A stretch of 53,240 nt of DNA, from the NCBI GenBank assembly GCA_021734105.1, contig JAIPJP010000005.1:1-53240 (forward strand), written 5' to 3'. The stretch comes from Candidatus Woesearchaeota archaeon (GTDB taxonomy: Archaea > Nanobdellota > Nanobdellia > Woesearchaeales > SKGA01). Position numbers and translations under genes: made by a program. Below are positions 11,525-51,472 of the stretch, one piece after another; position 1 is the first letter of the stretch; the number at the start of each line of letters is the position of its first letter. The notes beneath the pieces are model-generated. The model worked only from the letters and a program-made list of their open reading frames with translations. It did no database searches and was not told where the DNA came from.

Positions 11525-11652
11525 GCCAACGTCGCATAACCCGGTATTGCGCCGGCCTTGAGAGTCGAAAACTTGATGTTTTCGAAGCTTTAGGTCTTCG
11601 ACCAAAACAGCCGGTCCCTTTGGGATTCCCGGTTCGAATCCGGGCGTTGGCG
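11525..11652 (+). tRNA. tRNA-Ser(TGA) with a 46-nt intron
   Basis: The acceptor stem GCCAACG (11525-11531) pairs with CGTTGGC (11645-11651), and G11652 is the discriminator, as in archaeal tRNA-Ser. The anticodon stem CCGGC/GCCGG encloses a loop with anticodon TGA. A class II variable arm (TCCC-TTT-GGGA) precedes the T arm CCCGG-TTCGAAT-CCGGG. The intron is about 11563-11608 at the 37/38 site and holds a GTCGAA...TTCGAC helix. A TATA-like CTTTAAAAAG lies about 38 nt upstream. CCA is not encoded. Confidence 0.93.
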
Positions 11653-19950: not shown

Positions 19951-20005
19951 TATTGTTTTTTTGTTTTTTGTTATGCTTTGTATAGTTTCTTATTGTAAAT
20001 AATGG

Positions 20006-20106
20006 CGAAGTACTGTTGCGCGCTGCTAAAAAAATAAATCATATTTCACGCATCAAAATAAACAGAGCCTTTCTTAATGTCTGCGCAGCAAAGAATACTA
20101 TCTGCT
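20006..20106 (+). repeat. 101-nt dispersed intergenic element, copy B
   Basis: This block matches 34661-34561 (minus strand) with 16 differences and no gaps by hand, 12 of them transitions. Both copies follow an information gene (nop10, rps6e) in the same orientation. TTGCGCGC near the 5' side can pair with GCGC-A-GCAA near the 3' side. A weak TATA-like TTTGTATAG is centred about 26 nt upstream. The rest of the 279-bp gap (19951-20229) is T-rich and shows nothing else. Confidence 0.6.
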
Positions 20107-20229
20107 TGCTCATAGCTTTTCTTTAAGGAATTGATCTTGACTTTTATTGTGTTGTTTGTGTTTGTTTTTAAAGTTTTTTTTACAAAGCTTTTTAAGGGAT
20201 GATGTTTTAAAAAATAGTGGGTTTGTGAT

Positions 20230-41720: not shown

Positions 41721-41743
41721 CGTGGCATAAAAAAATAAATGAC

Positions 41744-41849
41744 GCACTGCGAAGAATTATTACTCGCTACGCGAATAAAGACTTATCGTTAAACGCAGTC
41801 ATTTGCTTTTGGCAAATACGTTTGACTTACTTGTTCTTCAAGGCAGTGC
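41744..41849 (+). ncRNA. Predicted three-way-junction RNA, locus C
   Basis: P1 is GCACTGC (41744-41750) + GAAGAA (41751-41756) paired with TTCTTC (41834-41839), a bulged AAG (41840-41842) and GCAGTGC (41843-41849). P2 is TTATT/AATAA with CGC/GCG (41757-41778). P3 is GTTAAACG (41788-41795)/CGTTTGAC (41819-41826), enclosing ATTTGC/GCAAAT. The design is shared with loci 42807, 49077 and 51278. No protein frame covers it. Confidence 0.6.
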
Positions 41850-41885
41850 AGACATTAATTTTGCAGGGTTTGGCGAGTCTGTTGT

Positions 41886-42371
41886 TTACTCGTCTGCAAG
41901 TTCTTTATCGTAGTTACCTGCGTTAATTTCTGAGATAAGCTCTGAAGATTTCTTACCATTAATTGTAACGCCCATACTTCTACATGTGCCAAGAATTTCT
42001 TTCACGCGCATTTTTTGGTTTTTACCCGTAACCGCACCTTCTTTCATTCGCGTAATTTTTTTCACTTGTTCAAGTGTGAGGTCTCCCACATAATCAGATT
42101 GAGGTGTGCCACTAGCTTTCTTAATATCGAGTTCTTGCTTGATAAGAGCGGTTGCAGGCGGGGTTCCAATTTCAATTTCAAAAGACTTATCATTAGTTTC
42201 GATGATTACTTTTACAGGAACTTGCATGCCTGCAAAATCAGCAGTTTTTTTGTTAATCTCAGCAACAACTTGTCCGATATTAACTCCTTTTGGACCAAGA
42301 GCAGGTCCTAGTGGAGGTGCAGCACTCGCTTTACCGCCAACAATTAATGCATCTACAGTTTCTTTAGCCAT
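41886..42371 (-). CDS. rpl11: 50S ribosomal protein L11
   Basis: The 161 residues match archaeal L11: MAKETVDALIVGGKASAAPPLGPALGPKGVN start (first residues shown), GTPPATALIK, KEILGTCRSMGVTINGKKS, and an acidic end. It binds the GTPase-associated region of 23S rRNA. The usual neighbours (rpl1, rpl10, rpl12; secE, spt5) are absent here. It has an unusually long leader with a repeat ORF (42386-42538) and is flanked by two structured RNAs. Confidence 0.97.
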   Translation of the reverse strand: MAKETVDALIVGGKASAAPPLGPALGPKGVNIGQVVAEINKKTADFAGMQVPVKVIIETNDKSFEIEIGTPPATALIKQELDIKKASGTPQSDYVGDLTLEQVKKITRMKEGAVTGKNQKMRVKEILGTCRSMGVTINGKKSSELISEINAGNYDKELADE

Positions 42372-42385
42372 TTTTTATTGCCTCA

Positions 42386-42538
42386 TTAAAAGGTGGCTGA
42401 AGTTCGAAAATCTTTGATTTTTGTTTTTTCAGCTAAATTGTTAATTGCTGAAGTTCGAAAATCTTTGATTTTTGTTTTTTCAGCTAAATTGTTAATTGCT
42501 GAAGTTCGAAAATCTTTGATTTTCGTTTCTTTAGCCAT
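42386..42538 (-). CDS. 50-aa repeat ORF upstream of rpl11 (candidate leader peptide)
   Basis: From ATG 42538 the frame runs MAKETKIKDFRTSAINNLAE and so on, and ends TSATF-stop at 42386, 14 nt before the rpl11 ATG. The 17-residue unit KIKDFRTSAINNLAEKT occurs twice, plus a third partial unit. The first five residues (MAKET) and the preceding ATAAAAAA are the same as at the rpl11 start, so the ORF arose by duplicating that start. TGAGG after its stop codon could serve rpl11. It could be a leader peptide, a duplication by-product or untranslated. Confidence 0.5.
   Translation of the reverse strand: MAKETKIKDFRTSAINNLAEKTKIKDFRTSAINNLAEKTKIKDFRTSATF
42396..42532. repeat. 51-bp tandem repeat, 2.7 copies
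   Basis: Units start at 42396, 42447 and 42498; the first two are identical over 51 bp and the third differs slightly and ends in the MAKET region. The period is 17 codons, so expansion or contraction keeps the frame. It is not a CRISPR array: units touch and there are no spacers. Confidence 0.9.
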
Positions 42539-42755
42539 TTTTTTATCATCTGCCAACGAATGTTAGGCGTCATTGTGTGTTTTGCTTTGCTCAACAGCAC
42601 GTAAAAACCTATTTCATAGCTTATTGTTTTTTTTGGCGAAATGGTTGAATAGAATACGTCTATTCCATACTTCACCGGTTGTTTCTCAGAACGAAACTCG
42701 TTCTGGATAGAGGATGCTTCAAACCTTGGTTTTTAGCGACCCCGTGTTTATGGTA
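42539..42755 (-). promoter_or_regulatory. Structured leader upstream of the repeat ORF and rpl11
   Basis: If transcription starts near 42755, about 26 nt after the TATA at 42777-42785 on the minus strand, the leader is about 217 nt before the repeat ORF. It contains a perfect hairpin CAGAACGA-AAC-TCGTTCTG (42687-42705) and a GAATAG/CTATTC hairpin near 42640-42665. A 63-codon frame (42484-42675, GTG start) also crosses it but looks non-coding. Confidence 0.45.
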
Positions 42756-42776
42756 GTAGGAAGGAGTGAACAGGGG

Positions 42777-42785
42777 TTTATAAAA
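42777..42785. promoter_or_regulatory. Near-palindromic TATA serving two directions
   Basis: TTTATAAAA is a TATA box on both strands. On the plus strand its centre is 26 nt before the first base of the predicted RNA at 42807. On the minus strand it points at the rpl11 leader. Confidence 0.5.
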
Positions 42786-42806
42786 GTACTTTTTTTATTT
42801 TTTATT

Positions 42807-42915
42807 GTGCTACGCAGACTTTTCGCGCCTTTGGCTTGGCGAAGCTTAATCATTTGTCGCAATAATTTCGCAGATTTGCGAAATACAACAAATTTATTTT
42901 TCTGCAAGGTAGCAC
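42807..42915 (+). ncRNA. Predicted three-way-junction RNA, locus F
   Basis: P1 is GTGCTAC+GCAGA (42807-42818) paired with TCTGC (42901-42905), bulged AAG (42906-42908) and GTAGCAC (42909-42915). P2 is CTT..CGCGCC-TTT-GGC..GCGAAG (42819-42844). P3 is ATTTGT (42852-42857)/ACAAAT (42888-42893), enclosing a perfect ATTTCGCA/TGCGAAAT (42865-42884). The TATA at 42777-42785 places the start exactly at 42807. The P1 bases differ from the other loci while pairing is kept. Confidence 0.65.
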
Positions 42916-42921
42916 TACGTA

Positions 42922-43647
42922 TTATTTCTTCTTAAGTATTTCTAGAATCTTTGGCGTTGCTGGTGTGTAGGTTGTTTTCTCGTTTGGCTTGTACATTGTT
43001 TTTATAGAATCAGTTGAGTTAGTTGTTGAAGTAGAGTTTAACTTTACGCCTGCAAGCGCGCTTTCAATATTGAAGTCCTGAGGCTTGGTTACTGTTGGTT
43101 GATACGTTGCCTTAATTTGCTCTTCTCGCTTTTGTACAACTTGTTGGATAACAGTATAGGTTTGATTAAGATTTTCTCGGACAAGCGGATTAAAGTCGTA
43201 ATCATTAGCCATTCGGTGGGCTTCGGTAATCGTGAAAAACCTGTTAGCATCATCAGGTGTCCAACTCGTTTTATACATCAAATTGTATAAATCATTTCGC
43301 GTATTATAACTTGTAGCCATGGAGAGCTCTTGTTGGCTAATTGCCTGATACGGTGTTTGTTTTTGATCAAGTAACTCGCGCGTCACGTTTTGTGTGACTT
43401 CTTCTAAACTTTGTATTTCTTCTTCAAGTGATGCTTTATTTTCTTTAGCAGAGGTTATGGACTCTTGCTCTTCTTCTCTATCATGGGTTGCTTCTTCAAG
43501 CAAGTTTCTTGTGACTTGGAGCTCAGCAAGGAGAGTTTTGAGTTCTTTTTCTTTTTGCTTAAGTTTAGCGAGGAGCTCGCGCTCTGCTTCTTCATATAAG
43601 CCAATTCTCATGCGAGAACTCGTTTTTGTTGGAGCTTTTTGAGGCAT
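42922..43647 (-). CDS. Coiled-coil protein of unknown function, 241 aa
   Basis: The N-terminal half (about 15-95) is a strong Glu/Lys/Leu coiled coil. The middle has aromatic helical segments (NDLYNLMYKTSWTPDDANRFF). The C-terminal third is Thr/Ser/Pro-rich and disordered before a short helix ILEILKKK. No family is recognised. Confidence 0.65.
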   Translation of the reverse strand: MPQKAPTKTSSRMRIGLYEEAERELLAKLKQKEKELKTLLAELQVTRNLLEEATHDREEEQESITSAKENKASLEEEIQSLEEVTQNVTRELLDQKQTPYQAISQQELSMATSYNTRNDLYNLMYKTSWTPDDANRFFTITEAHRMANDYDFNPLVRENLNQTYTVIQQVVQKREEQIKATYQPTVTKPQDFNIESALAGVKLNSTSTTNSTDSIKTMYKPNEKTTYTPATPKILEILKKK

Positions 43648-43753
43648 AGATTATTTTTATATATGCGCTAGTTAATTAATCTTTTGGCAGATGTGTTGTT
43701 GAGGATATTGCTGCGGAAGCTTTATTAATGAAGGATTGCTCTTAGGTGCTTAT

Positions 43754-44575
43754 ATGGATTATAAAGAAGAATGTCGCGCAATGTTAAAAGTTCTTACGGG
43801 AGCTTCTTATGTACTTTTCACTACTCGATGTAATGAATCAATTAAACTAGCCATGCAACTTGTGGCTGATCTTGGACGGCATATTGTGTTATACCAAGAA
43901 GAAGGCGGATGGTTAACGTATGAGAAATATATCAAGCAAGCAGGACTTGAAGGTTTAAAGATGATTACTGATGATGGACTTATTTATGAAAAAGAATTAA
44001 ACCAATATGACTATGATATAGTACTTTTACTTAACTCCATGCCAGGATATGCAGTAACTCATGATATGGCAAATATATATTCTCATTGTCTGAAAAATGA
44101 TATTTTTTTAGTGAATGATGTTTCAGGAAGCATAGGGAGCACTCACGCAAAATTTGGAGATGTTATTGTAGGTAGTTTTAACAAAGCAAAACCTGTTGAC
44201 CTTGGTCGAGGGGGATTTATTGCAACTAATGCTGTTGATTTATTTGCAAAAATAAAAACGCATCTTGAAGAAGAACCCGAAATGGATTATCAACAGCTTC
44301 ATCATAAACTAAAACATTTAGACCAACGTAGAAGCTTTCTTTTAGAACGAGCAAAGAAGGTAAAAGAAGATTTAATTGCTCATCATGTTGTTCATCAAGA
44401 AAAAGAAGGATTTAATGTTATTGTCCGTTTTGAAGATGATGCTGAAAAAGAAGAAATTATTTCTTATTGTGATAAAAATGAATTAGAATATACGATTTGT
44501 CCTAGAGAAATAAGAATTTTAGATGATGCAATAAGCATCGAAGTAAAACGATTAACAGGTCATAACGAGAACTAA
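43754..44575 (+). CDS. PLP-dependent aminotransferase-like fold type I protein
   Basis: From ATG 43754 the product has 273 residues. VNDVSGSIGS followed by GDVIVGSFNKAKPVDLGRGGFIAT resembles the PLP-lysine region of DegT/cysteine-desulfurase-like enzymes, with the Lys in FNKAK as candidate Schiff-base residue. At about 273 residues it is shorter than usual (about 370), so the small domain is trimmed. The reaction is unknown. The TTG 18 nt upstream is rejected; a TTTATTAATG TATA is near 43720. Confidence 0.65.
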   Translation: MDYKEECRAMLKVLTGASYVLFTTRCNESIKLAMQLVADLGRHIVLYQEEGGWLTYEKYIKQAGLEGLKMITDDGLIYEKELNQYDYDIVLLLNSMPGYAVTHDMANIYSHCLKNDIFLVNDVSGSIGSTHAKFGDVIVGSFNKAKPVDLGRGGFIATNAVDLFAKIKTHLEEEPEMDYQQLHHKLKHLDQRRSFLLERAKKVKEDLIAHHVVHQEKEGFNVIVRFEDDAEKEEIISYCDKNELEYTICPREIRILDDAISIEVKRLTGHNEN

Positions 44576-44765
44576 TTTTTTTCTATTTGTTATTTTGAAT
44601 ACGTATTCTTCTTAATTGTATTAGCACTTCAGTAATAATTTTCAGTTTACTATGTTCATACCGCAAATTTTACGGTTTTTTCTTAATAATACTTATGTAG
44701 TAACACACATCATAAAAAGTTATACAAAATAATTTTTCCAAATGAATAATTTGGAGGTCTTGCAA

Positions 44766-45080
44766 GTGAGCTTAGAACGACTCTGCAAATCAGCAAAACG
44801 AATAGATAAAATAGATGCAATAACAGGGCCACTTTCAGTAGCACTTTATCACTCAGGAAGCGAGGTACTTTATGGTATTGGTGTAGCGATGAGCGTTGCA
44901 GAAATTACGTTTCTTAAACTTCCTTGGCTAGCTAGTTATATGGTTCAAACAAAAGATGTGGTTGCGCCACTTTTTATCACGGCTAAAGAAGTTGTTTCTA
45001 ACTCTAACAAAATTTCGGGAATAATTGATGTTGTTCCTTTTTATTCAATGGTTATGAATTATAAAACAAGCGGAAGTTAA
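44766..45080 (+). CDS. Small hydrophobic protein of unknown function
   Basis: The GGAGGT at 44753-44758 sits 7 nt before GTG 44766, so this start is preferred over the ATG 24 nt upstream, whose own codons contain the Shine-Dalgarno. The product has 104 residues with helical, moderately hydrophobic segments (VALYHSGSEVLYGIGVAMSV, in part) but no clear topology. No family is recognised. Confidence 0.5.
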   Translation: MSLERLCKSAKRIDKIDAITGPLSVALYHSGSEVLYGIGVAMSVAEITFLKLPWLASYMVQTKDVVAPLFITAKEVVSNSNKISGIIDVVPFYSMVMNYKTSGS

Positions 45081-45095
45081 CAATTAGAGGTTAAT

Positions 45096-45764
45096 TTATG
45101 TTAAATTGTTTGGTATTGGCATGATGTATTTGATTCCTGTTGTGTTAGTTATTGAGTTATATCTTTGCAAATGCTTATTATTTTTGTAGGCGTAGAATAA
45201 AGGAATAACTTTTACTCTTCCAAAGCTTTCTGCAAGAAGTTTTAAACTTAACTTATTTGTTTCGTATGCATTCATTGCATTGGCAGCTGCAATTTCAAGA
45301 TTCTTTTTTGTAAGATCTGAATTTTTTATGTTATATGTTGTCTCTTCTTTATTTGCGAGTCTTTTTGAAAGAATATCTAGACTCATACTTTCTTCTATAA
45401 AATCGCTTTGGTTAATTACATTTTGTTCCACAAAATAAATCCCAATTCGAGGTCTATGAACTTCATATTTGTTTTTCATAATCTTCTTGAATTCAGTTTC
45501 TACTTCTCTTAGATTAAGTTGTAATAATGGATGAAGAAATTGCAACATCATCACTTGCGCAACATAATCAGGAATATCTGCTTTGAATCTTTTTAATTTG
45601 TAGTTAACTTGTTTACCAGTAAATTGTAATTTTTCTTCTATTGATTCTTTGTTTGGTTGAGAGAAAATATTCTTTTTTTTGAATCGATTTTCAATTTCTC
45701 TGAAAACTTCTTCTTGAATAATCTTTATTTCGGGACGCATTTTAGCGCTCATTTCTAATCTCAT
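45096..45764 (-). CDS. Basic helical protein of unknown function, 222 aa
   Basis: The protein is Lys-rich with a helical first half (EEVFREIENRFKKKNIF; a DIPDYVAQVMMLQFLHPLLQ helix, in part) and a beta/alpha second half (RPRIGIYFVEQNVINQ). TATA ATTATATAATCC (minus strand, about 45784-45797) is 26 nt before ATG 45764, so it is leaderless. No family is recognised. Confidence 0.6.
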   Translation of the reverse strand: MRLEMSAKMRPEIKIIQEEVFREIENRFKKKNIFSQPNKESIEEKLQFTGKQVNYKLKRFKADIPDYVAQVMMLQFLHPLLQLNLREVETEFKKIMKNKYEVHRPRIGIYFVEQNVINQSDFIEESMSLDILSKRLANKEETTYNIKNSDLTKKNLEIAAANAMNAYETNKLSLKLLAESFGRVKVIPLFYAYKNNKHLQRYNSITNTTGIKYIMPIPNNLT

Positions 45765-45857
45765 AAACTATTTATTCTTATTGGATTATATAATTCTTAC
45801 CGATACTTTTAAATAACAATCTCAGATAACCAATAGAACGGGTGTGAAGCTCTTTTT

Positions 45858-45928
45858 GCGCACATGGCCAAGTGGTAAGGCACCGGATTGCAGCTCCGGG
45901 ATCCCCAGTTCAAATCTGGGTGTGCGCT
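45858..45928 (+). tRNA. tRNA-Cys(GCA)
   Basis: Acceptor GCGCACA/TGTGCGC, anticodon stem CCGGA/TCCGG with loop TT-GCA-GC, short variable loop GATC and T arm CCCAG-TTCAAAT-CTGGG define tRNA-Cys. T45928 is the discriminator. There is no intron and no encoded CCA. A TATA CTTTTAAATAAC near 45807-45816 precedes it. Its 3' end is duplicated at 46004-46021. It is 146 nt before cysS. Confidence 0.95.
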
Positions 45929-46003
45929 TTGCTTAACCCATCTTTGAACTTTTCAGTTCATGCTTGAAAATGTTTCATTTTCAGCACCCCTTGTTCCTCT
46001 GGG

Positions 46004-46021
46004 AATCTGGGTGTGCGCTTT
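46004..46021 (+). repeat. 18-nt copy of the tRNA-Cys 3' end
   Basis: AATCTGGGTGTGCGCTTT is identical to 45913-45930, covering the T-arm/acceptor 3' half of tRNA-Cys. The 73 nt between copies contain TGAAC...GTTCA and TGAAAATG...CATTTTCA hairpins. Confidence 0.75.
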
Positions 46022-46073
46022 TATTCTCTTTTTAGGGTAATTTTTATAAATAAACTGATTAGTTTAATGTATT

Positions 46074-47546
46074 ATGGTTTTAAAGCTTTATAATTCACTC
46101 ACCAACAAACTCGAAGAATTTATTCCAGTTATTCCTGGAAAGGTCCGAATGTATAATTGCGGGCCGACTGTTTATAGCTATCAACATATAGGAAACTTCA
46201 GGGCTTTTGTTTTTGCAGATCTCCTTCGCAGAGTTTTCAAATACAAAGGATTTGAAGTTGTGCAAGTGATGAATATTACTGATGTTGGACATCTCACAGA
46301 TGATGGTGATGACGGTGAAGACAAGCTTGATGTTGCTGCAAGAAAAGAAAAAAAACATCCTTTAGAAATAGCACGTTTTTATACCGAACAATTCTTGGCT
46401 GATTGGAATGCGCTTCGATTACAAGACATTGAATTTCGACCAAAAGCAACGGAAACCATTACTGAAATAATTGAGTTAATTAGCGTTCTTTTAGAAAAAG
46501 GACATGCATATCAAGCAAGTGGAAATGTGTATTATGATGTGACTTCATTTCCAAATTATGGGAAACTTTCAGGAAATTCATTAGATAAATTGACTAAAAA
46601 TAGAGTTGCAAAAGATCCAAACAAAAAAAATGCGAATGATTTTGTTTTATGGTTTGGAGAATCAAAATATGAAAATCACATTCTAAAATGGGACAGTCCT
46701 TGGGGCGAAGGATATCCTGGATGGCACATGGAATGTTCTGCTATGAGTGCAAAATTTCTCACTGAAGCATTTGCTGATAAAAAGCTTTCTAAGACTCATT
46801 TTCAAACTATTGATATCCATACAGGAGGAGAAGATAATAAATTTCCTCATCATGAATGTGAAATTGCGCAAAGTGAAGGTGTTTTTGATAAACAGTATGT
46901 GCATTATTGGCTTCATCCAGCTTTTTTACAAGTTGAAGGTGGAAAGATGAGTAAATCTGCCGGAACTGTTTATTATGTTTTTGACTTAATTAAGGAAGGA
47001 TTTAGTTGGCGAGCAATTCGCTATTTATTATTATCTGCTCATTATCGACAAACACTTAATTTTACAAAAGAAGGGCTACAAGCAGCATCACAATCTTTAG
47101 CTCGAATAGATGACACGCTCAAAAAACTTCAAGCAGTTCGAAGTGAACAACCTTATAGCGAACAATTAGGAAAAGCAATAAATGTAATGAAACTTGTAAT
47201 CGAGCAAGAACTTGATAATGACCTTAATATTAGTGGCGCTTTAGGTGCTCTTTTTGAAGCAATAAAAATAATTAACAAAGCACTTGATGAAGGAATGGTT
47301 GGAGACGAACAAGCAAAAGAAATTCTTACAACAATGATGCATCTAGATGGGTTATTTGGTTTTTTACCGCCAGAGCTTTTAGATGATGATGAGGTTCCTG
47401 CTGAGGTGGCTGACTTATTATCTGAACGAGCAACTGCACGAAACAAAAAAGATTGGGGAACAAGCGATTCTCTTCGAGATGCGCTAAAAGAAAAGGGTTA
47501 CGAAGTTCGAGACACTCCCAGGGGTCAAGAACTAAGAAAACTCTGA
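46074..47546 (+). CDS. cysS: Cysteinyl-tRNA synthetase
   Basis: The 490 residues contain the class I signatures YQHIGNFRAF (HIGH) and GGKMSKSAGT (KMSKS), and zinc-ligand residues including YNCGPTVY and GWHMECSAMS. The C-terminal anticodon-binding helices end with a KDWGTSDSLRDALKEKGYEVRDT segment typical of CysRS. It charges tRNA-Cys, whose gene lies directly upstream. A TTTATAAATAA TATA (near 46045) precedes the ATG. Confidence 0.97.
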   Translation: MVLKLYNSLTNKLEEFIPVIPGKVRMYNCGPTVYSYQHIGNFRAFVFADLLRRVFKYKGFEVVQVMNITDVGHLTDDGDDGEDKLDVAARKEKKHPLEIARFYTEQFLADWNALRLQDIEFRPKATETITEIIELISVLLEKGHAYQASGNVYYDVTSFPNYGKLSGNSLDKLTKNRVAKDPNKKNANDFVLWFGESKYENHILKWDSPWGEGYPGWHMECSAMSAKFLTEAFADKKLSKTHFQTIDIHTGGEDNKFPHHECEIAQSEGVFDKQYVHYWLHPAFLQVEGGKMSKSAGTVYYVFDLIKEGFSWRAIRYLLLSAHYRQTLNFTKEGLQAASQSLARIDDTLKKLQAVRSEQPYSEQLGKAINVMKLVIEQELDNDLNISGALGALFEAIKIINKALDEGMVGDEQAKEILTTMMHLDGLFGFLPPELLDDDEVPAEVADLLSERATARNKKDWGTSDSLRDALKEKGYEVRDTPRGQELRKL

Positions 47547-47613
47547 TTTGGCTTTTTCCACGCAAATATTTATAAACTTTAACGAGCAATTTTTCTTTAG
47601 AGGTGAACTAAAA

Positions 47614-48063
47614 CTGACTAGAGGACAATCTTCTGTAGAATACTTGTTTATAGTAGCAGTAGCCTTGATGATGATTATTCCTGGAAGCGTTATTTTTTAT
47701 CGTTATTCTTCAGACTCACAAGCAGCTCTTGTAAGCACACAAATTTATCGCTCAGGAACAGAATTAATTGATACGGCTGATCTTATTTACTCTGTTGGCT
47801 CAAATTCTTGGCAAACCTTAGCATTATCTATCCCAACCGATGTTCATGAAATGCTCGTGTATAATGATACTTCAATGAGTGAATTGGTGTTGGTGTATGG
47901 TCCTTATAAATCTCACGCTGTTTTTTTTACTAGAATAACGCTTCTAAATGAAACAAGCAATGATTGCTCTGCTGGTTGCAGCATACCCATTACTGATGGT
48001 GTTAATGAAATTAGAGTGGAATCACATGCAAATGGAGTGGTGCGATACAAGGTTGTAGAATGA
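47614..48063 (+). CDS. Class III signal-peptide (pilin-like) protein, apparent CTG start
   Basis: The N-terminus TRGQSSVEYLFIVAVALMM is a class III signal peptide: cleavage before Q, QxSxEY, then a hydrophobic helix, as in archaeal type IV pilins processed by EppA-like peptidases. A beta-rich domain of about 120 residues follows. TATA ATTTATAAA (47568-47576) starts RNA near 47598, after the only in-frame ATG (47548). AGGTGA (47601-47606) is 7 nt before CTG 47614, the best start. The second pilin-like gene overlaps by 4 nt. Confidence 0.75.
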   Translation: MTRGQSSVEYLFIVAVALMMIIPGSVIFYRYSSDSQAALVSTQIYRSGTELIDTADLIYSVGSNSWQTLALSIPTDVHEMLVYNDTSMSELVLVYGPYKSHAVFFTRITLLNETSNDCSAGCSIPITDGVNEIRVESHANGVVRYKVVE

Positions 48064-48593
48064 AAACTGTAAAAAAAGGTCAATCCGCCTTAGAATTTGT
48101 TCTGTTAGTCTCATTCATGCTTCTAGTTTTTTTTGTCTTTTTTATTGTTATACAAGGTAAACTCTCAGATATTATCTCAACAAGAGATTATCAATATTTA
48201 GAAGAAGCGAATAATGCCATATTTACTGAATTTGAAATTGCTTGGGGAGTACATGCTGATTATTTTCGAACATTTACCATTCCTACCATTAGCGATAAAT
48301 TATACCTTATTGAAATGGGTGATCCTTATGAATTAACAACAAAATACGGGACTAAAGAATACGTTAATTTCTTATCCGAACCAGTAAAGGGTTCATTACA
48401 TCAAGGTGAGAATGATTTATATAAACTTGATGGAAACATACTCCTATCTGATGGCACACTTTATGAAAATCTTAGTTATGCAGGACTTTTCTTAAATGTT
48501 AATCCTGAAGCGTGTTATTTGGCTGATGCTAACTCGTCATGCGATACTCTTTCTTATAAATCAGACTGTCAAAGTCTTTTCGGGCTTTGCTGA
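48060..48593 (+). CDS. Second class III signal-peptide (pilin-like) protein
   Basis: The start MKTVKKGQSALEFVLLVSF is a class III signal peptide (KKGQSALEF), followed by a membrane helix. An extracellular domain of about 140 residues contains Cys near its C-terminus (CYLADANSSCDT...SDCQSLFGLC), which could form disulfides. It overlaps the previous gene by 4 nt. Both may assemble in a pilus-like or surface filament; no ATPase gene is nearby. Confidence 0.8.
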   Translation: MKTVKKGQSALEFVLLVSFMLLVFFVFFIVIQGKLSDIISTRDYQYLEEANNAIFTEFEIAWGVHADYFRTFTIPTISDKLYLIEMGDPYELTTKYGTKEYVNFLSEPVKGSLHQGENDLYKLDGNILLSDGTLYENLSYAGLFLNVNPEACYLADANSSCDTLSYKSDCQSLFGLC

Positions 48594-48649
48594 GTTTTTA
48601 TATCGTTAAGACATAATGATTTAAATAATACCTTTTCTTTTTACTCACT

Positions 48650-49051
48650 ATGAGAATAACACGAGTAACTATTGTCCGTGAAAAAAAACTCTCGCCAGAC
48701 ACCATTAACGATTTACTCATGCTCTTTGGAGAAAGTCTTGGTCTGTTTAGTATGCGAGATAAAGATAAGAGTTGCTATAGAATTTTTATAACGCTTATTA
48801 AAGCATTAAAGATGGATGTGGAACTCACCAGCGATGAACTTGCTTCTCAAACAGGACTAACGCGAGGAACGGTAATTCATCATCTGAATCGACTCATGGC
48901 AGCAGGTATTGTTGTTAATTATAAAAACAAATATTATATCGAACATAAAAATCTTAAAGCAATGGTAACATCGCTACGCGAAGGAATGAACGCTCTTCTT
49001 GACGACTTATCCATTGTTGCTGACAAAATAGATGATCGTTTAGATTTGTGA
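48650..49051 (+). CDS. Winged-helix transcriptional regulator
   Basis: The 133 residues contain a winged helix-turn-helix: LTSDELASQTGLTRGTVIHHL recognition helix (quoted in part), NRLMAAGIVV and a beta wing NYKNKYYIE, with a helical C-terminus for dimerisation. It resembles ArsR/TrmB/MarR-like regulators. A TATA-like ATTTAAATAATA lies near 48620-48630. It follows the pilin genes and could regulate them or itself. Confidence 0.85.
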   Translation: MRITRVTIVREKKLSPDTINDLLMLFGESLGLFSMRDKDKSCYRIFITLIKALKMDVELTSDELASQTGLTRGTVIHHLNRLMAAGIVVNYKNKYYIEHKNLKAMVTSLREGMNALLDDLSIVADKIDDRLDL

Positions 49052-49076
49052 GATTTCTTGGCTGTGCACATAACAT

Positions 49077-49219
49077 GGCTGTTGCCTTGAATTACAAACA
49101 AGAGTCGACGCGATTTGCCGCGAGGCATGCCCAAAAGTATTTTCTTGATTTTTGAGCATATGTAGCGAAACGACTTCTTTTTTTGCATTTGCAGAATGCA
49201 ATATATCTTCGCAACAGTC
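49077..49219 (-). ncRNA. Predicted three-way-junction RNA, locus E
   Basis: Read on the minus strand: GACTGTTGC (49219-49211) + GAA pairs with TTC, bulged AAG (49088-49086) and GCAACAGCC (49085-49077), one wobble. P2 is TTGCAT/ATGCAA (49201-49183). P3 is AGTCG/CGACT with CGC/GCG (about 49175-49103). Minus-strand GAAATATAAC (49250-49241) is centred 26 nt before 49219. The rest of the 417-bp gap 49052-49468 shows the glgP TATA and nothing else firm. Confidence 0.5.
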
Positions 49220-49438
49220 AGAAATGATTATATGCGTAAAGTTATATTTCTTTTTTTGTATTGTTTAGCACATCATGACCTTGAAGAACAATAAAGCATG
49301 CTGCATTTCGTAAATCAAAGGTTAAGAAATTTTCGCAGCTAGCAATAACTTTTTTGAGTGGAGCGAGAATAAACCTTTGTGCGTGTTGTAAACAATTTTT
49401 ACTTATTTTTAGTTACTACTCATTCTGAATCCACAATC

Positions 49439-49446
49439 CTTATAAA
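49439..49446 (+). promoter_or_regulatory. TATA box that sets the glucan phosphorylase start
   Basis: CTTATAAA is centred 26 nt before ATG 49469, so the message is leaderless and the longer frame from GTG 49379 is not used. Confidence 0.65.
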
Positions 49447-49468
49447 CAAAATTTCTCTCAAACAAAGC

Positions 49469-51202
49469 ATGGCCTTAAAGAACACTTCGCAACTTACGCA
49501 AATGGTGCGAAACAGAATAGCTTATTTTAGTATGGAAATAGGATTTCGAAGTGATATTCCTACCTACAGCGGAGGATTAGGAGTGCTTGCAGGGGATACG
49601 ATGAAATCCATGGCAGATATAGGTATTGATGCAGTTGGGGTGACCCTTCTTTCTGAACACGGTTATTTCACTCAACATCTAGATGAACATGGCTATCAAT
49701 ACGAATCGCCAACGGATTGGCCAGTAAAAGATACCTTACATAAACTCGATGTTTCTGTAAACGTTTATTTACATGATCGCGTTGTAAAAGTAAACGTGTG
49801 GGAATACGAACTAGTTGGTGTTTTAGGAAAAAGTATTAAACTATATTTCTTAGATACTAATGATGAAGCAAATGATGAACAAGACAGATTACTTACTGCA
49901 AAATTGTATGGGGGAGATAATCAGTATCGACTCAAACAAGAAATAATTTTAGGCATTGGCGGCGTGAAAGTACTTCGAGAACTAGGTTATAATCCAAGAA
50001 AATTTCATATGAATGAAGGACACGCAGCATTTCTTATTTTAGAACTTTATCGAGAACTAGATGATATGAATTGCATATCGGAGGATTGTGAACAAGAAAA
50101 ACTAGATATTATTCGACAACATTGTTCATTTACAACGCATACGCCAGTTGCCGCAGGACATGATGAATTTGATGAACAACAAGTAAGAACATATTTAGGA
50201 ACTATTCTTCCAGATAATATTTTTAACTTAGTGAAACGAGATGGTAAATTTTCTATGACGCGACTTGCACTACAATTTTCCTCTTATGTAAATGCGGTAG
50301 CCCGTAAACATCAAGAAGTATCCAAACGAATGTTTCCAGAGTACGATATAGATTATATTACTAACGGTGTACACTCAACAACCTGGGTAAACCCTCATTT
50401 TGCAGCACTGTATGATAAATATATTATTGATTGGCGAGAAAATCCTTTAGAACTACGAAATGCAAGAAAAATTCCCATCGCTGAATTTCGACACGTACAC
50501 GAAAAAGCAAAAAAAGATTTATTCTCTTTTATTAAACAAACAACAGGAACAGAATTTGATGCGCATATATTCACCATAGGATTTGCGAGACGCGCAACAA
50601 GTTATAAACGAGCAGATTTACTCTTTAAAGATATTAATCGACTCAAAGATATAAGCAGACGTGTTGGTCGCATACAACTTATTTTTGCAGGAAAAGCACA
50701 TCCAAACGATCATGAAGGAAAACTTTTAATTCAACGCATTGTGCATTTAGCTCAACAACTAACGCCAACAATAAAACTCGTCTTTTTACAAGACTACAAT
50801 ATGGATATTGCCCAACGACTTGTTTCAGGAGTGGACCTTTGGTTGAATACTCCACAACGACCACTTGAAGCATCCGGAACGAGCGGGATGAAAGCTGCGC
50901 ATAACGGCGTGCCAAGTCTTTCTGTTCCAGATGGTTGGTGGATTGAAGGACTCATGGAAGATGCAACGGGATGGGGTATTGGTGAAGAAGTAGTATACGA
51001 GCAAGATTATGAAAAAGTGAACTGGCAAGACGCTCAACAAATATATGAAAAACTCGAACAAAAAATTCTGCCGCTTTATTATCAAAATAATGATGAATAT
51101 GTAGCGGTTATGAGGCGTGCAGTAGCAATTAATGGAGCATATTTTAACACGCAACGAATGGTTGATCAATACTTAGTACGCGCATATGCACGAAACAACT
51201 GA
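49469..51202 (+). CDS. glgP: Alpha-glucan phosphorylase (GT35, short form)
   Basis: From ATG 49469 the product has 577 residues, the short archaeal/bacterial form. Markers are YFSMEIGFRSDIPTYSGGLGVLAGD (in part), FHMNEGHAAF, TTHTPVAAGHD, GFARRATSYKRA and the PLP-Lys segment EASGTSGMKAAHNG. It releases glucose-1-phosphate from glycogen or maltodextrin. With the ROK kinase and enolase it points to glucan use through glycolysis. A 30-codon 5' extension is rejected because of the TATA position. Confidence 0.95.
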   Translation: MALKNTSQLTQMVRNRIAYFSMEIGFRSDIPTYSGGLGVLAGDTMKSMADIGIDAVGVTLLSEHGYFTQHLDEHGYQYESPTDWPVKDTLHKLDVSVNVYLHDRVVKVNVWEYELVGVLGKSIKLYFLDTNDEANDEQDRLLTAKLYGGDNQYRLKQEIILGIGGVKVLRELGYNPRKFHMNEGHAAFLILELYRELDDMNCISEDCEQEKLDIIRQHCSFTTHTPVAAGHDEFDEQQVRTYLGTILPDNIFNLVKRDGKFSMTRLALQFSSYVNAVARKHQEVSKRMFPEYDIDYITNGVHSTTWVNPHFAALYDKYIIDWRENPLELRNARKIPIAEFRHVHEKAKKDLFSFIKQTTGTEFDAHIFTIGFARRATSYKRADLLFKDINRLKDISRRVGRIQLIFAGKAHPNDHEGKLLIQRIVHLAQQLTPTIKLVFLQDYNMDIAQRLVSGVDLWLNTPQRPLEASGTSGMKAAHNGVPSLSVPDGWWIEGLMEDATGWGIGEEVVYEQDYEKVNWQDAQQIYEKLEQKILPLYYQNNDEYVAVMRRAVAINGAYFNTQRMVDQYLVRAYARNN

Positions 51203-51277
51203 GATTTTCTTTTGTTTGTTATTTGTTTAATTATAATACTAAGAATAGGTCCTGTTTCAACATGGAGGGGAAATGCA

Positions 51278-51388
51278 TACTGCGAAGTACTATTCTCGCT
51301 GTGCTTACAAAAGCATTATCCTTAGACGCTCTCGTATCTTTGATGAAGAAGAAATGCGTCTAACTCAAAAAAAAACTTTCAGGCAGTA
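51278..51388 (+). ncRNA. Predicted three-way-junction RNA, locus D
   Basis: P1 is TACTGC+GAAGT (51278-51288) paired with ACTTTC (51375-51380, one bulged T), a bulged AG and GCAGTA (51383-51388). P2 is GTGCTT/AAGCAT (51301-51316). P3 is a perfect TTAGACGC (51322-51329)/GCGTCTAA (51356-51363). It lies 85 nt before the enolase start, outside the enolase promoter (CTTTAAATAGG, near 51425). A possible own TATA is AATTATAATAC near 51230. Confidence 0.6.
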
Positions 51389-51472
51389 GACAAACGATTT
51401 TGAACAGAGCCTAAGAATAAAAATCTTTAAATAGGATGGTGAACTAAAGACTGCTAAAAAGGTGAGCATGAT

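Follow-up and report, generated by a model that had tools for sequence, protein, structure and literature searches.

Which process has placed a recurrent branched structure between the genes of a woesearchaeal contig? The window, by which we mean the whole 53,240-nt stretch of DNA analysed, is positions 1 to 53,240 of contig JAIPJP010000005.1 (contig 5) of a Candidatus Woesearchaeota archaeon (assembly GCA_021734105.1), whose genome of 1.07 Mb is 97% complete. A sequence-only reading of the window had proposed that at least four intergenic loci between positions 41,744 and 51,388 are small RNA genes with a common three-way-junction design. Our analysis replaces the small RNA gene with a different assignment: the loci are probably non-autonomous IS5-type mobile elements, that is, miniature inverted-repeat transposable elements (MITEs), carrying a conserved branched core that is constrained mainly as DNA.

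A dispersed family with a covarying three-way-junction core

All four loci lie in the window at the coordinates and on the strands originally assigned to them, and a single design common to them is borne out by RNA folding and a covariance model. An outer stem closes the structure and is followed by an inner helix of 4 bp; on the 3' side there is an AAG bulge of 3 nt, and two hairpins, first a short and then a long one, complete the layout. Loci 1, 2 and 4 fold into the closing stem and two hairpins; relative to dinucleotide shuffles their z-scores are -3.76, -2.65 and -1.87. The outer stem is also retained at locus 3 (z = -2.53), and its inner helix, which contains a G/A mismatch (GAAG/ATTC), is absent from the minimum-energy fold. 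The 3-nt bulges described at three loci stand, while the AG bulge described at the fourth is corrected to CAG (inner helix GAAGU/ACUUU), giving a 3-nt bulge in all four. Sequence alignment of the four loci alone also identifies the motifs CTGCGAAG on the 5' side and CTTCAAGGCAGT on the 3' side, with TTATT-like and TTATC-like stretches preceding the two hairpins. A k-turn reading of the bulge was rejected, as no tandem G-A pairs adjoin it in the sequence.

A covariance model built from the four loci with the structure given by hand (R1) detected 39 places in the source genome at E<1.1e-3. A second model (R2), built from an alignment (A3) of 30 R1-found copies realigned by MAFFT without structure, raised the original four loci to at least 48 at E<1e-3, a lower bound because scoring was limited to 150 first-look candidates. 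The structure scored on A3 comprises a 7-bp outer stem, the 3-nt bulge, the 4-bp inner helix, a hairpin P2 and a two-part hairpin P3. Paired cells account for 80.9% of this alignment, compared with 68.1% after shuffling and 34-40% with slid partners, and changes on both sides of a pair occur in 151 cells versus 59.6 +/- 6.8 in shuffles. The covariation score is 0.398, and sliding the partners by 1-3 columns brings it to about 0.1. Compensatory change, earlier called covariation-like, is well above both kinds of control, and the resemblance of the loci is not a product of chance. The AAG bulge is one-sided, with each position 91-99% conserved. Above the gathering threshold, an Rfam search yielded tRNAs only, in agreement with the earlier failure to recognise a known RNA.

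Copies are intergenic, at median distances of 42-68 bp from predicted genes; for the window copies, too, intergenic placement holds, apart from slight overlaps with predicted open reading frame starts. Relative to both neighbouring genes, 16 copies are co-directional, 16 opposed and 18 split, a mixture on account of which a gene-end terminator with fixed orientation was rejected. Among 39 genomes (the source genome and relatives), matches are confined to the source genome, a same-genus genome (2 copies) and a genome from another family (1 copy), whereas a second same-genus genome (99% complete) and one same-family genome have none. Across 353 genomes of the order, 10 contain matches, including two of one genus with at least 9-10 copies each and members of a further family with 1-2 per genome. 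Copies in the latter have a different, G+C-richer sequence with the layout kept (e.g. TGCGGAG...CTCCAAGGCAG). Bursts of near-identical copies are found in distant genomes, and together with the patchy presence they form the pattern of a mobile element. Window copy 1 and a copy in one relative (L047 in G004) both adjoin uL11. An old RNA gene beside uL11 was rejected, since a scan of 27 uL11 loci in relatives showed no core at 26, those of both same-genus genomes included, and we therefore take the shared neighbourhood as coincidence.

Terminal repeats, target duplications and a matching insertion sequence

Window copy 4 is enclosed by terminal inverted repeats and exact direct repeats (Table 1). 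Outer ends like GGCTCTGTTCAAAAT...ATTTTGAACAGAGCC are common to seven copies of the source genome including this one, and a second group of near-identical copies in that genome has the ends GGCTTTGTCCGGAA...TTCTGGACGAAGCC. Terminal repeats are present in window copy 4, in about 12 other copies of the source genome and in most copies of two further genomes, G044 and G045. Many copies with ends are flanked by exact 8-9-bp direct repeats, for example GATGTAAG (L103), GCATAAAC (L021), GTCCAACCA (L107) and, in G044, TAAAAACGA. Of six copies compared in G045 (Tobar13m-G34), five are identical in the core and have common ends GGCTAATATGAAACCC. The elements there are about 150 bp long, their 16-bp ends are perfect in the youngest, duplications include CCATAAAC and AGTGAAAAA, and the genome contains 48 matches to the ends; G045:C47:916-1066 corresponds to JAIPET010000039.1. 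In G294, a core of very different sequence sits between nearly the same ends, and the copy with TTAAAGTTC belongs to JABJCP01 (SI073_bin58). Both of these correspondences were established by shared coordinates and flanks. At least four different terminal repeats (GGCTAATATGAAAC, GGCTCTGTTCAAAAT, GGCTYTGTCCGGAA and GGGTGTGTCCCAA) surround the same core, and at 120-220 bp the elements leave no room for a transposase gene.

A matching autonomous element is present in the Woesearchaeota assembly JAGVYP01 (RIFCSPHIGHO2_02_FULL_36_9). At L239:6048-7065, an insertion sequence of 1018 bp that shares the 16-bp ends contains a single 304-aa open reading frame that matches PF01609 (DDE_Tnp_1) above the cut-off (E 1.2e-10); its match to the IS5 model NF033579 has an E value of 3.8e-38 with 131.6 bits, below the cut-off of 140. 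Two other contigs of this assembly, L187 and L222, contain core copies, and the one at L187:3100-3288 has L239-type ends with GAGAAGAAA on either side. Fragments of the same transposase occur in G294 at contig edges, next to the same ends. Two other candidate movers were rejected. An IS256 transposase had been considered on account of the 8-9-bp duplications, and PF00872 is absent from the eight genomes searched; for Y1/RAYT mobilisation, PF01797 has no match in the source genome and one weak match in G045.

A scan of the sequence collection for the ends returned many contigs of Woesearchaeota and Nanoarchaeota, often at contig edges, as is usual for repeats, along with bacterial contigs that resemble chance matches. 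Exact 9-bp duplications flank many of the short elements found in this way. The leader of the L239 insertion sequence contains an inverted repeat around CTCGTCGATAAAC/GTTTTATAGACGAG, and pieces resembling such insertion sequences lie at contig edges in other assemblies (L190, L194, L205, L220, L238). Short archaeal elements with ends GGCTAATATGAAAYCC (L188, L193, L196, L202, L209, L211, L223, L226, L237, L241, L243, L249, L250, L257, L261) contain different, highly branched interiors that lack the AAG design, and several have exact 9-bp duplications. A structured interior may accordingly be general in such elements.

The types of MITE suited to comparison are ERIC, Correia, Nezha and QMITE. 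Like prokaryotic MITEs in general, the present elements are shorter than 300 bp, lack a transposase, have terminal inverted repeats and target duplications, of 7-9 bp in MITEs, and occur in numerous intergenic copies with a structured interior (PMC10969869). They differ in that the interior is one defined three-way junction, whose conservation by covariation spans families within an archaeal order, and in that the core is conserved across members with different ends. The same review describes stable stem-loops formed by MITE transcripts and an example with 7-9-bp direct repeats, and names few archaeal cases (PMC10969869). Among open-licence literature we found no papers combining MITEs and DPANN archaea, nor, in open-access literature, any on such repeats in Woesearchaeota. 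To our knowledge, few mobile elements have been described from DPANN archaea. IS5-family groups that make 9-bp duplications, IS903 among them, have ends that start with GG(C/G). The present family resembles them in its GG(C/G) ends, its 9-bp duplication and a partner transposase that matches PF01609 and NF033579; in contrast, only the 16-bp ends are common to both, and the autonomous element does not contain the core. Repetitive extragenic palindromes (REP) moved by Y1 HUH transposases (RAYT) likewise lie dispersed between genes and have short conserved motifs at the base of the stem, whereas here the source genome has no Y1 transposase and complete members have DDE-type ends and duplications.

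Constraint on the core as RNA or as DNA

A fold used as a one-strand RNA should keep G-U pairs and avoid A-C. Among 2051 cells at paired sites of 71 distinct copies we counted 98 G-U and 99 A-C, and the balance is maintained in copies at least 85% paired (21 versus 27). As a yardstick, tRNA stems gave 6 G-U versus 1 A-C, in a small sample that had been filtered with G-U allowed. The equality counts against one-strand RNA selection, and since decay after insertion yields G-U and A-C equally, it bounds such selection rather than excluding it. The result fits a constraint on DNA, selection in two orientations, or hairpin-templated repair that keeps palindrome arms alike. Such repair cannot explain the one-sided, conserved AAG bulge.

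Stand-alone small RNA genes with their own promoters, in which the three-way junction is a functional RNA spread by hitch-hiking on transposon ends, would agree with the strong covariation, the conservation of the unpaired AAG bulge and the motifs, and the pairing that persists in cores without terminal repeats. The inner helix also leans towards G-U. Set against this are the overall G-U/A-C equality, the random orientation of roughly 50 dispersed copies, same-genus genomes with few or no copies, the ends and target duplications, and the lack of an Rfam match, which together make small RNA genes very unlikely. About equally improbable are two-way RNA terminators or insulators coopted by the host. 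Selection in both orientations would equalise G-U and A-C, the copies lie between genes at short distances, and those without ends pair well; however, only 5 copies lie between converging genes versus 13 between diverging ones, so that there is no converging bias, and the nearest relatives are almost devoid of copies.

The closing stem also bears a resemblance to the bulge-helix-bulge stems of archaeal tRNA and rRNA precursors, in which an outer helix adjoins a 3-nt bulge and a 4-bp helix. Were it a relaxed substrate of the archaeal splicing endonuclease, transcripts would release a circular RNA of about 90 nt. The 4-bp central helix and 3-nt bulge beside the outer helix form half of the motif, and the AAG bulge is near-invariant, but the 5' side has neither a second 3-nt bulge nor an inner helix and opens into the junction instead, and the G-U/A-C symmetry also counts against it. 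We consider this role extremely improbable.

We favour MITEs of Woesearchaeales with a core of about 110 nt and an overall length of 120-220 bp. Complete members have terminal inverted repeats of 14-16 bp that start with GG(C/G), target duplications of 8-9 bp and, between the ends, the three-way-junction core with its AAG bulge. Mobilisation would occur in trans, by an IS5-type DDE transposase encoded in insertion sequences that are separate from these elements and have the same ends. The fold would be retained as DNA rather than as small RNA, possibly as a hairpin or cruciform that aids synapsis of the ends or replication-linked transposition; alternatively, the palindrome arms may be held alike through hairpin-templated repair.

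Several observations weigh against this assignment. The source genome contains no detectable PF01609 protein or L239-type transposase, which implies that the mover was lost, is unassembled or is of another type. The autonomous element lacks the core, and the family therefore does not consist of simple deletion derivatives. In about 37 of the 53 copies examined in the source genome, neither terminal repeats nor duplications exceed chance, and Watson-Crick pairing is 82% in cores without ends versus 80% in those with ends. We read the end-less copies as older insertions that have lost their ends; they may also be products of another mechanism or be kept for a host function. The inner helix alone tilts to G-U, 19 versus 6, as RNA selection would predict. 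Finally, the core is common to members with different ends, which suggests a role beyond transposition.

In an alternative reading, the core itself would be mobile through a mechanism that acts on a folded single strand and would have been captured several times by IS5-type ends. This would explain the many end-less copies. In its favour are the intact cores of those copies, the enclosure of one core by at least four different terminal repeats and the core parts common to otherwise different copies. Yet direct repeats around end-less cores are not above chance, no Y1 HUH transposase is present in the source genome, and the recent near-identical groups carry ends; we regard it as unlikely. Integron attC sites, at which DNA recombines, are also palindromes and have extra-helical bases, whereas the present elements form no arrays or cassettes, occur in both orientations and show no attC consensus by eye, a search for integrases not having been made. 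More speculatively, and with similarly low probability, the core could be a selfish DNA structure that stays folded and moves from one set of transposon ends to another, unrelated set throughout Woesearchaeales. It would then be a parasite that exploits transposases through its structure, and a protein of its own would read the AAG bulge.

Covariation is usually taken to prove a functional RNA, and can also arise from a mobile DNA element. Counting G-U versus A-C is a simple aid to separate the two. Since the fold persists between differing transposon ends, it also becomes testable whether DNA structure is read by transposases or host proteins.

Window copies and neighbouring features

The window contains a clear fifth copy, unlisted in the sequence-only reading, in which several outer-stem pairs are gone. 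Copy 3 is 77% identical over 183 nt, flanks included, to a copy elsewhere in the source genome (L121, G000:C3:2106), and the flanks are shared.

Table 1. Core copies of the window and the complete element around copy 4
Feature	Coordinates	Strand	Structure or sequence	Scores and terminal repeats
Core copy 1	41741..41852	+	stem GCACTGC/GCAGTGC, inner helix GAAG/CTTC, bulge AAG, two hairpins	R2 99.4 bits, E 4.5e-18; Watson-Crick in 25/27 scored pairs; terminal repeats: none recognised
Core copy 2	42804..42918	+	stem GTGCTAC/GTAGCAC, inner helix GCAG/CTGC, bulge AAG	R2 88.5 bits, E 1.0e-15; terminal repeats: none recognised
Core copy 3	49076..49220	-	second hairpin longer	R1 84.8 bits (training sequence), R2 34.4 bits
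Core copy 5	49270..49388	-		R2 69.7 bits, E 1.1e-11; R1 32.3 bits
Left target-site duplication	51239..51247		CTAAGAATA, exact 9-bp direct repeat	
Whole 163-bp insert around core copy 4	51248..51410	+	left end GGTCCTGTTTCAACAT, right end ATTTTGAACAGAGC	terminal inverted repeat
Core copy 4	51274..51392	+	stem TACTGC/GCAGTA, inner helix GAAGT/ACTTT, bulge CAG	R2 77.9 bits, E 1.9e-13
Right target-site duplication	51411..51419		CTAAGAATA, exact 9-bp direct repeat	

A weak R1 match (19.2 bits) at 19999-20134, not in the R2 list, contains GGCGAAGTACTGTTGC and CTTTAAGG and is perhaps a decayed copy. In three pairs of copies in the source genome (L010 and window 41741, L016 and L107, L008 and L026), high identity is confined to one half or one hairpin, as if cores recombined module by module.

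Other features of the window were also recorded. At 42396-42535, immediately upstream of the start of uL11, a 51-bp unit (GCTGAAGTTCGAAAATCTTTGATTTTTGTTTTTTCAGCTAAATTGTTAATT) is present in almost three tandem copies. Rfam, but not ARAGORN, identified two tRNAs (883-987 and 11525-11652) that are long enough for introns; these tRNAs and kinship with Woesearchaeota assemblies put the genome in the order Woesearchaeales. The 18-nt 3' end of tRNA-Cys (AATCTGGGTGTGCGCTTT, 45913-45930) has an exact repeat 91 bp downstream at 46004-46021, the kind of trace that small integrations leave at the 3' end of tRNAs.

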